40,986 nt of DNA from Bacillota bacterium (GTDB lineage Bacteria; Bacillota; Clostridia; SK-Y3). The position numbers were made by a program, and so were the translations under genes. Below are positions 3,497-40,450 of this stretch, one piece after another. Location: assembly GCA_022360955.1 (NCBI GenBank), contig JAKSBV010000001.1, forward strand, positions 1 through 40,986. The letters are read 5' to 3'. The notes below the pieces were generated by a model. The model was not told the origin of the DNA. It did no database searches and was given only the letters and a program-made list of their open reading frames with translations. Every line of letters starts with the position of its first letter. Within the stretch, counting starts at the first letter, position 1.

Positions 3497-4927
3497 CTAT
3501 TCACCGTCACACCACCTTTTAAAAGATTCAAACCATTGTTCCAGCTGCTTACGGTTCTCTTCCGACAAATTCCCCCCCGTCTCAATTGTCCGTAGTCCGT
3601 CTTTACCTACCGCGACCTCCACCTTTTGCGCCGAAAATCCACCCAGCCCGATCACCGTTCTGCCACCCAACGGCACCGTACCCGTACCGATTCTGCGCAA
3701 TACATAAATCAAGGGGAATATATAGGGGGTTATATCGCCGCCGTATTGGTCCGCCGACAGCTCAAAGCGGATTTTTGCTCTACCCTGAATCTCCTGCTGG
3801 TGTTTAAGAGCGGAAGCGTAAGCACCGCCCGTCAAACGATCGATTTTGACATAGATCGGCCCACGCTGCTCCTCTTGCCATTTTTTCTGTTCATTTTTTA
3901 CATATCTTTCAACCTGAACCTCCCGGCCCCCCTCAATCTGCAGGTCGGAAAACACCACTTTTCCCGGTGCCGCTTCCCCGCCGAACAGCTCCTCCAGCTT
4001 TTTGTCCGCAAGCGCCTTGTCCTTTATGCGTCTCAAGAGCAGTCGGATTTCGTTTTTGACCAGCCCTTTCACACTAGTTGAAGGAATGAAATAGCGACCC
4101 ATCTTTTTGAGCAGACCGGTAAGCTGTTGTCTGCCTTTGGAATCCTTCGCTGCGGCACCCCCTGTATTGTCGGCATTCTTAACGTCGAAACTCTGATAAA
4201 CACCGTAAGGAAACACCCCTTCCATCGAAAAAACCACCCTGCACCGGTCCTCCGACTCGTAATAGAGCAATTCCTTCCAATCCAACGCTTTCCCTTTTCG
4301 ATCTCTCGACCGAAAAATATATTGTTTCAAACATTCACCGCTGTCCAGCGGAAATACCGTTTTCTCCAGTTTTTCTAACCGGCATCGTCCGAAACCGTTG
4401 CTCTTTTGTCCGCCCAGCACAAGGCGCTGGGTCTCAAAGCCCTTGGCCCAAGTACCGATGATCTTCTCCAGTTCGGCTGCACACAATTCATCGTTTTCCT
4501 GCGTGTCGTCCCGTACATCCCCTTCGATTCGAAAGAAAATTTTTGTCTCCTCCGGCAGATGTTCCAAGGTATATTTGCTATGCTTTTCTGCCGCACCGTA
4601 GGCGGGATTGACGGCCGTGCCTTCTTTCCTGGAGTAACCGGTGGTTTTCGTCATCTTCCCGTCACTAATATAGATGCCGCTGGTCACAAAGGTCTCCTCG
4701 CCTTCTTCCCCCAGCTCAACGCCCCCCATATATTTGAGAATGATTTTATCCGGCACCCCGGTTTGTTTCAAATATTCCCGCAGCGCACCTCCGAGGGCAT
4801 TGCCCGGGATAACCGACCTGCCTTTGTCGCTTTGGAACAACGGGCTCTCCTGTCCGCTCTGTCCGTCACCAAAATAAAGGGGAGAAACGGCTTCGATCAA
4901 AAAATCATATATCACCTTTTGGTTCAT
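3497..4927 (-). CDS. Double RAMP (Cas7-Cas7 type) CRISPR type III subunit
   Basis: This 476-residue protein contains two consecutive RAMP units. Unit 1 has IPGNALGGALRE (40-51) and the G-rich loop GGQKSNGFGR (172-181). Unit 2 has IPSTSVKGLVKNEIR (281-295), the Cas7-typical KIDRLTGGAYASAL segment (361-374) and a second G-rich loop GGRTVIGLGG (421-430). Such fusions place two Cas7 backbone units in one chain and occur in type III-D. In unit 1 the loop before the RAMP motif, where Csm3-type proteins carry a catalytic Asp (in a DNP-like context), reads GQESPL here, so RNA cleavage by this unit is uncertain. The start overlaps csx10 by 23 bp. It is preceded by a GGGGG/AGGG-rich site. Confidence 0.82.
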   Translation of the reverse strand: MNQKVIYDFLIEAVSPLYFGDGQSGQESPLFQSDKGRSVIPGNALGGALREYLKQTGVPDKIILKYMGGVELGEEGEETFVTSGIYISDGKMTKTTGYSRKEGTAVNPAYGAAEKHSKYTLEHLPEETKIFFRIEGDVRDDTQENDELCAAELEKIIGTWAKGFETQRLVLGGQKSNGFGRCRLEKLEKTVFPLDSGECLKQYIFRSRDRKGKALDWKELLYYESEDRCRVVFSMEGVFPYGVYQSFDVKNADNTGGAAAKDSKGRQQLTGLLKKMGRYFIPSTSVKGLVKNEIRLLLRRIKDKALADKKLEELFGGEAAPGKVVFSDLQIEGGREVQVERYVKNEQKKWQEEQRGPIYVKIDRLTGGAYASALKHQQEIQGRAKIRFELSADQYGGDITPYIFPLIYVLRRIGTGTVPLGGRTVIGLGGFSAQKVEVAVGKDGLRTIETGGNLSEENRKQLEQWFESFKRWCDGE

Positions 4928-39535: not shown

Positions 39536-39587
39536 TAGAACAGAGGACGGTTCTTCGTTCTAGAACCAAGAACCGTCCTCTGTTCTA
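39536..39587. repeat. REP-like palindrome 1
   Basis: Perfect 20-bp arms (39536-39555, core GAACAGAGGACGGTTCTT, and 39568-39587) with a 12-base loop. It lies at the end of the ABC permease gene and supplies the last codons and stop of the opposing small membrane gene. Confidence 0.85.
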
Positions 39588-39850: not shown

Positions 39851-39879
39851 ATTGATATCGCACCTCACTTTAGAACAGT

Positions 39880-39929
39880 AGAACAGGGGACGGTTCTCCG
39901 TTTTAGAACGGAGAGCCGTCCCCTGTTCT
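39880..39929. repeat. REP-like palindrome 2
   Basis: Arms of 23 bp (39880-39902, core GAACAGGGGACGGTTCTCC, and 39907-39929) with one mismatch and a 4-base loop. It supplies the last codons and stop of the Spo0E-like gene. Confidence 0.85.
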
Positions 39930-40103
39930 GCGATAATAAGAAACAATCTGTTTGTCCAGCTCCCGGCTGAGTTCGACGATTTCTTCCTTTATTGCACCAT
40001 CTTTGGGCAAATCACATCCAATAAGTTGGTGAAGCCTTTGCCGCAGTATTTCAATGGATTGCTTGGTGCGCCGCATCTCCTCTGTGGGGCTATCTGAATT
40101 CAT
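39903..40103 (-). CDS. Spo0E-family aspartyl-phosphate phosphatase
   Basis: This small 66-residue helical-hairpin protein has the family pattern: IEILRQRLHQLIG in helix 1 and the signature SRELDKQIVSYYRR in helix 2, where SxELD carries the catalytic acidic residue. Spo0E-like proteins dephosphorylate Spo0A~P and delay sporulation. GAGAGG precedes the ATG at about 11 bp. The C-terminal RTGDGSPF and the TAA stop are encoded by REP palindrome 2, just after the signature, so the core is intact. Confidence 0.88.
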   Translation of the reverse strand: MNSDSPTEEMRRTKQSIEILRQRLHQLIGCDLPKDGAIKEEIVELSRELDKQIVSYYRRTGDGSPF

Positions 40104-40110
40104 ATTTATC

Positions 40111-40152
40111 TTTTCCTCTCAAAATGTTTTTTTGAGAGGAAAATTAAAAAAG
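40111..40152. repeat. Inverted repeats upstream of the Spo0E-like gene
   Basis: A 14-bp perfect hairpin (TTTTCCTCTCAAAA 40111-40124 with 40130-40143) is followed by a segment 40134-40152 that is also complementary to 40331-40347, on the far side of the cloverleaf RNA. A further imperfect pair, AAAGCGCACG and CGTGCACTTT, lies between about 40149 and 40192. Together they look like the ends of a small mobile element. Confidence 0.55.
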
Positions 40153-40201
40153 CGCACGGCAGAATTACATATGTATCCTACACGTGCACTTTATGTCAGC
40201 A

Positions 40202-40230
40202 TTGCAAAAATACTCGAAATGGAGTATAAT
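40202..40230 (+). promoter_or_regulatory. SigA-type promoter for the cloverleaf RNA
   Basis: TTGCAA (40202-40207), a 17-bp spacer and a perfect TATAAT (40225-40230) predict a start near 40237, which coincides with the first base pair of the folded RNA. Confidence 0.65.
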
Positions 40231-40235
40231 AACAT

Positions 40236-40338
40236 AAGGTTGCTGTGATAGCCAAAGGCTATACGCGTAGGCAGCTTTCCTCTGCCCGCGTGAGCTTCCG
40301 AGTGCTGCAACACTCGGAAGTCACGGCGACCTTTTTAA
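40236..40338 (+). ncRNA. Candidate structured small RNA, four-way cloverleaf
   Basis: A closing helix of 13 pairs (40236-40248 with 40321-40333, including two G-U pairs on the plus strand) encloses three hairpins: TAGCC/GGCTA (40249-40253, 40257-40261, loop AAA), ACGCG/CGCGT plus GGCAG/CTGCC (40263-40291), and a 10-bp stem CTTCCGAGTG with CACTCGGAAG (40295-40320). The closing helix runs straight into a T-rich 3' end. I do not recognise the family; it lacks tRNA features such as GGTTCRA or a CCA end. No frame in it is credible as protein. Confidence 0.55.
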
Positions 40339-40401
40339 TTTTCCTCTTTCATTGATTATATCTATTTTTGACGAAAAATGCAAGATTTTTTTGGATAAAA
40401 T

Positions 40402-40441
40402 GGGTGACGGTTCTTTGTTCTAAAGCAAAGAACCGTCACCC
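40402..40441. repeat. REP-like palindrome 3, purL terminator
   Basis: Perfect 16-bp arms (GGGTGACGGTTCTTTG 40402-40417 and 40426-40441) share the GACGGTTCT core with palindromes 1 and 2. It lies 10 bp after the purL stop and probably ends that transcript. Confidence 0.85.
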
Positions 40442-40450
40442 GTTCTAGTA

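Follow-up and report, generated by a model that had tools for sequence, protein, structure and literature searches.

A candidate antisense RNA cassette in the leaders of Spo0E-like and other genes of the Bacillota

Introduction

To our knowledge, it is mainly from the control of plasmid copy number that antisense-RNA attenuators are known. The closest described systems include RNAI/RNAII of pT181, where the RNAs meet by a kissing-hairpin contact (PMC3753616), and RNAIII of pIP501. The regulators of R1, ColIb-P9 and pMU720 have a 6-base loop, TTGGCG, in common (PMC3753616). Other relevant systems are SymE-SymR of E. coli, where the SymR promoter lies inside the symE open reading frame (PMC1891008), and the type I toxin-antitoxin systems of Clostridia, a review of which makes no mention of a cloverleaf, a leader or attenuation (PMC6563280).

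In this study we describe an element from a 40,986-nucleotide stretch of DNA of a Bacillota bacterium (the window), where a predicted small RNA folding into a four-way cloverleaf lies opposite the leader of a Spo0E-like gene. Spo0E-like proteins dephosphorylate Spo0A~P and thus hold back sporulation, as established for Bacillus.

The element shares with pT181 RNAI/RNAII and pIP501 RNAIII a position antisense to a leader and a downstream terminator-like hairpin with a competing upstream segment, but it differs from them in its chromosomal or prophage location, varied cargo, four-way cloverleaf, two variable loops and Shine-Dalgarno (SD) hairpin. The pT181/pIP501-type features found here are the hairpin, the U-run (weak in some copies) and the complementary segment, while ground-state folding is without a switch in most copies. 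The presumed loop-loop logic resembles that of R1, ColIb-P9 and pMU720, and in several copies a loop reads exactly TTGGCG or the complement of it; in contrast to these plasmids, neither a rep gene nor a leader-peptide/pseudoknot design was identified, and the loop varies between paralogues. As in SymE-SymR, an antisense RNA overlies the 5' part of an mRNA, and SymE-family cargo is found in some copies, and only in some; yet both the RNA and its promoter lie wholly within the leader, upstream of the SD sequence and start codon, which is not the SymR arrangement, and there is no Rfam match. The Clostridia type I toxin-antitoxin systems likewise combine an antisense RNA, a small protein and a frequent prophage location (PMC6563280), but most cargo of the present element is not a small hydrophobic toxin.

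A Structured RNA on the Plus Strand

The original prediction, made from the window alone, proposed a plus-strand small RNA gene in which a TTGCAA-17-TATAAT promoter directs a start at the foot of a four-way cloverleaf of about 100 nt that ends in a U-rich run. The promoter is present where it had been placed, with a predicted start at ~40236-40237, exactly the cloverleaf foot (Table 1). Folding bears out the cloverleaf: the RNA of 40202-40338 reaches -63.6 kcal/mol (z -8.45), a stability equalled by none of 200 shuffles, and the U-run CCTTTTTAATTTT follows immediately. The argument that G-U pairs of the closing helix favour the plus strand also holds, as AGGUUGCUGUGA/UCACGGCGACCU forms two U-G pairs on this strand that turn into A.C on the minus strand.

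The prediction had matched the RNA to no family and called for a comparison with Rfam, which gave the same answer: zero matches in the window at the gathering threshold, and at E values up to 10 only eukaryotic snoRNA and miRNA noise, nothing meaningful. A tRNA search of the feature returned none. In ten homologous loci no Rfam family matched at the element, and neither there nor in the window was homology to the plasmid ctRNA families of Rfam detected.

Table 1. Predicted features of the element and its surroundings in the window.
Feature	Position	Strand	Basis or detail
mRNA leader promoter TTGCAT-17-TATAAT, predicted start near 40348	40355..40383	-	sequence; conserved among copies
Segment a, leader 5' end AGAGGAAAATTAAAAAGG, pairs with a'	40330..40347	-	inverted-repeat and a:a' analysis
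Antisense small RNA, consisting of a four-way cloverleaf (40236-40333) with a U-rich tail	40236..40342	+	fold, covariation
Loop 4 (CTGCAA), presumed recognition loop, variable between copies	40305..40310	+	
Segment opposite helix 3 (y..x), presumed antiterminator, complementary to the two arms of the terminator-like hairpin	40262..40293	-	
Loop 3, presumed recognition loop, variable between copies	40275..40281	+	
Leader segment b TTATGTTAT, complementary to b' (40191-40198)	40229..40237	-	sequence; inference
Antisense RNA promoter TTGCAA-17-TATAAT	40202..40230	+	-35 at 40202-40207, -10 at 40225-40230
Terminator-like hairpin AAAGTGCACGTGTAGG..CCGTGCGC and U6 tract (40151-40146)	40146..40192	-	sequence
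Segment a' TTTTTAATTTTCCTCT, complementary to a and overlapping the SD hairpin on the side of its 5' arm	40135..40150	-	
Hairpin sequestering the Shine-Dalgarno GAGAGG (40120-40115)	40111..40143	-	folding
Putatively regulated gene, 66-aa Spo0E-like protein (PF09388)	39903..40103	-	Pfam

The covariation test in homologues that the prediction had named as its check revealed strong compensatory change in the helices. Standard pairs occupy 93.7% of the cells in an alignment of 46 copies, which was fitted to the model and hence leans towards it; double compensatory changes occur in 28 of the 39 pairs (274 such cells). The covariation values were reached by 0 of 500 shuffles, and sliding the pair partners destroys the signal. 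G-U cells number 268 in these copies and A-C cells 29. When both strands of eight homologues were folded, the plus strand kept the cloverleaf, and the minus strand folded more weakly and mostly lost the closing helix. With the covariance model, the plus strand scores ~61-130 bits in nearly all copies and the minus strand at most 31. Since G-U cells far outnumber A-C cells and the model scores are higher on the plus strand, it is this strand that encodes the structured RNA under selection. The sequence of helix 3 is nearly invariant among copies, and nearly all of them carry the antisense promoter, i.e., a TATAAT -10 box and a -35-like hexamer at a spacing of 16-17 nt. The comparative evidence supports a plus-strand small RNA gene, and on this basis we regard 40236-40342 as a real one.

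Position and Architecture in the mRNA Leader

What the original prediction missed is the cis-antisense position of this gene. In the window, the cloverleaf is located between the minus-strand promoter and the start codon of the Spo0E-like gene, and, where a copy has enough flanking sequence, the RNA nearly always overlies in antisense the 5' leader of the opposite-strand gene. By sequence, the element thus has the general hallmarks of a cis-antisense RNA, a position opposite a leader and a promoter of its own. In mRNA orientation, the promoter is followed by the predicted 5' end GGAAAATTAAA (segment a), the antisense of the cloverleaf and of the small-RNA promoter, and then the terminator-like hairpin with its U-run, TTTTTAATTTTCC (segment a'), the SD hairpin and the start codon. 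The same layout, from promoter and a through the element and terminator-like hairpin to a', SD hairpin and start codon, recurs in almost every copy whose flanks are long enough.

The flanking inverted repeats noticed in the original prediction are real, although its limits were 1-2 nt too wide: 16 nt are repeated at 100% identity (40135-40150 with 40332-40347). One repeat forms the 5' end of the predicted mRNA leader, and the other is its complement beside the SD hairpin. Segments a and a' are complementary in nearly every copy; between groups both partners change, but the complementarity is kept. We set aside the reading of the repeats as simple transposon ends, because they co-vary as leader pairing; part of the complementarity could stem from a common origin of the two inverted ends.

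For the y..x segment of the leader, pairing with the arms of the terminator comes to about -17 to -30 kcal/mol. In the two most divergent groups, f17 and f22a, the leaders pair best with their cognate terminators (-23.4 versus -12.6 to -19.3 and -21.2 versus -11.7 to -18.3, respectively). The f22a terminator is paired better by the foreign Rum leader group than by its cognate leader, and in the groups with the GTGTAGG motif cognate and non-cognate pairing are about equal. The U-run of the terminator is weak in some copies (L040, L041).

At equilibrium, the SD hairpin is closed in most copies, with or without the antisense-covered part of the leader, and the probability that the SD sequence is unpaired does not exceed 0.10 in 26 of 30 copies. 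Only in a few copies, L036, L038 and L022, does this probability (0.30, 0.28 and 0.08) fall to 0.00 once the antisense-covered part is removed, which is the expected direction. The expectation that equilibrium folding would reveal an ON state failed in most copies.

Distribution, Opposite-Strand Genes and Exchange

The source genome harbours a second copy (79% identity), and further copies occur in relatives. Among 391 genomes of the class, the first covariance model (R1) had hits in 12, representing six families. The model built from the 46 copies (R2) matched 6 of 11 Ruminiclostridium-family genomes and 6 of 398 genomes of the phylum, in further families, with up to 8 copies per genome. A pattern scan confirmed by the model located nine copies in one MAG and identified as carriers Petroclostridium sp. 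X23, Ruminiclostridium papyrosolvens C7, Maledivibacter halophilus, Lucifera butyrica and Bacillota/Clostridia MAGs. Pattern matches on three viral contigs and in one Corynebacterium were unmatched by the RNA model and were taken as chance. Phage and plasmid records searched with the window element and a Ruminiclostridium copy yielded nothing. A search of open-access papers on Spo0E, DUF6809 and antisense RNA turned up no description of the element, an absence that is weak evidence.

The gene opposite the element in the window encodes a Spo0E-like protein by its match to PF09388 (32.5 bits, curated cut-off 23) and is one among several Spo0E-like genes of the source genome. Cargo elsewhere comprises Spo0E-like, DUF6809-like and SymE-toxin-like proteins as well as a large serine recombinase, and some copies reside in prophages or their remains, adjoined by capsid, terminase, holin, amidase and recombinase genes. 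Many copies in two genomes (L079-L090 in G729 and G767) precede a conserved protein of 54-55 aa (MTDYKKMYFQLAAKVADAMDILLKAQ..), one member of which was scanned and had no Pfam match.

A distant copy, at L094 (G621:C53, 2125-4564), precedes a 75-aa open reading frame and a Cas12f1 gene (424 aa; PADLOC Cas12f, E 7e-144; PDB 8j12, E 3e-110) accompanied by a CRISPR array of six repeats. The last spacer (4488-4527), situated before a degenerate repeat, matches over 39 bases the SD/start region of its own operon (2307-2345), with TTTG just upstream of the protospacer; judged by this match, it looks like a self-regulating guide.

Copies within the same genome differ chiefly in their loops: the per-base difference is 0.66 in loop 3 and 0.55 in loop 4, compared to 0.04-0.09 in the stems. 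Between L023 and L028, which differ by 1% in the 80 nt upstream and by 5% in the gene, seven of nine differences in the element fall into the two loops. Loops also change between some likely orthologues. Loop divergence on stable stems is as expected for putative kissing loops that avoid cross-talk. In the three Petroclostridium sp. X23 copies L023, L025 and L028, helix 2 is ~30 nt longer; the extension is identical among them, and loops 3 and 4 differ.

The suggestion that the element had moved as a unit is right in part. The flanking repeats are more than the two ends of a transposed unit, but at locus L025 of Petroclostridium the flanks and gene are those of L018 (mostly 80-100%), whereas the promoter and element are mostly 88-100% identical to L023/L028, against 28-82% to L018 in the promoter/element core; the whole cassette was therefore exchanged as a unit. 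The promoter-antisense-leader unit is a portable cassette; it occurs before genes for several kinds of small protein, before recombinase operons of prophages and before one Cas12f operon.

Other repeats occur nearby. A long, REP-like palindrome of the GGACGGTTCT..AGAACCGTCC type is present three times around the element (39536-39586, 39879-39929 and 40396-40446), and one of these copies supplies the last codons of the Spo0E-like open reading frame. At least seven perfect palindromes of this type occur elsewhere in the genome. In Petroclostridium L018, the mRNA strand encodes a 260-aa protein downstream of the Spo0E-like gene, ~530 bases past the element; we take it to resemble a REP-associated tyrosine transposase.

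Proposed Mechanism and Alternatives

These features suggest that the ~100-nt RNA is probably a cis-encoded antisense RNA which represses the opposite-strand gene, here the Spo0E-like gene, by attenuation and sequestration of the ribosome-binding site. Attenuation and SD sequestration would act as in pT181/pIP501 and IncI-type plasmids. If the antisense RNA is absent, upstream leader segments would pair with downstream ones as they emerge, and the nested pairing of a:a' and y..x:x'..y', in the right order, would open the terminator and the SD hairpin, allowing expression. If the antisense RNA is present, its two loops would kiss the matching loops of the leader, and the ensuing duplex would take the upstream segments away, so that the terminator and the SD hairpin could both form and shut expression off. 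Where the small RNA has G-U pairs, the leader has A.C; its copy of helix 3 is therefore weak, which would suit an antiterminator. The ON state is the weakest step of this switch model: as equilibrium folding keeps the SD sequence closed, the ON state would have to be kinetic or factor-dependent.

The same antisense RNA might repress solely by blocking translation or through RNase III cleavage, with transcription attenuation playing no part. The SD hairpin is indeed the steadier downstream feature, and some copies have a weak U-run, but a terminator-like hairpin and a complementary leader segment are kept across groups, and we consider this variant unlikely while giving it some weight. Alternatively, the cloverleaf might be a stand-alone or trans-acting RNA that acts on other targets or binds a protein and lies opposite leaders incidentally. 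The strongly selected plus-strand fold and the near-invariance of helix 3, reminiscent of a protein site, would suit such an RNA; yet in nearly all copies that have sufficient flank the leader layout persists as the cargo changes, and loops that vary between paralogues speak against a shared trans target, which makes this reading improbable.

Conversely, the minus strand might itself be a cis-regulatory leader, riboswitch-like or protein-sensing, and the plus-strand fold its mirror image. Terminator-like and SD hairpins and long-range pairing on the minus strand are in line with this idea, which nevertheless appears very improbable given 268 G-U against 29 A-C cells, model scores of ~61-130 against at most 31 bits, the conserved plus-strand -10 box and hypervariable loops unlike a ligand pocket. 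Least probable of all is a small MITE- or REP-like mobile inverted-repeat element devoid of regulatory function: inverted repeats, several copies per genome, cassette exchange, prophage contexts and REP-like palindromes nearby would be in keeping with it, but neither the deep compensatory evolution, nor the fixed position between promoter and SD sequence, nor the promoters preserved on both strands are.

Implications

Antisense repression by attenuation and SD sequestration being the preferred reading, the element looks like a new chromosomal and prophage family of a known kind of regulator, distinguished by an unusual breadth of cargo and by natural, distinct loop codes. In a broader view, to which we assign about even chances, it would be a portable, self-contained antisense silencing cassette, spread throughout the Bacillota and placed by mobile elements or hosts before unrelated, potentially costly genes (a sporulation regulator, SymE toxins, recombinases and Cas12f), with mutually orthogonal loop codes that evolved to keep the copies independent.

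Orthogonality of RNA regulators is a stated challenge in the design of RNA circuits (PMC3753616). As several copies coexist per genome with diverged loops on a scaffold that has not diverged, the natural orthogonality of RNA-RNA regulators becomes directly testable. Furthermore, Spo0E-like sporulation regulators, SymE toxins, prophage recombinases and one Cas12f CRISPR system may be subject to a layer of control that has gone unnoticed.
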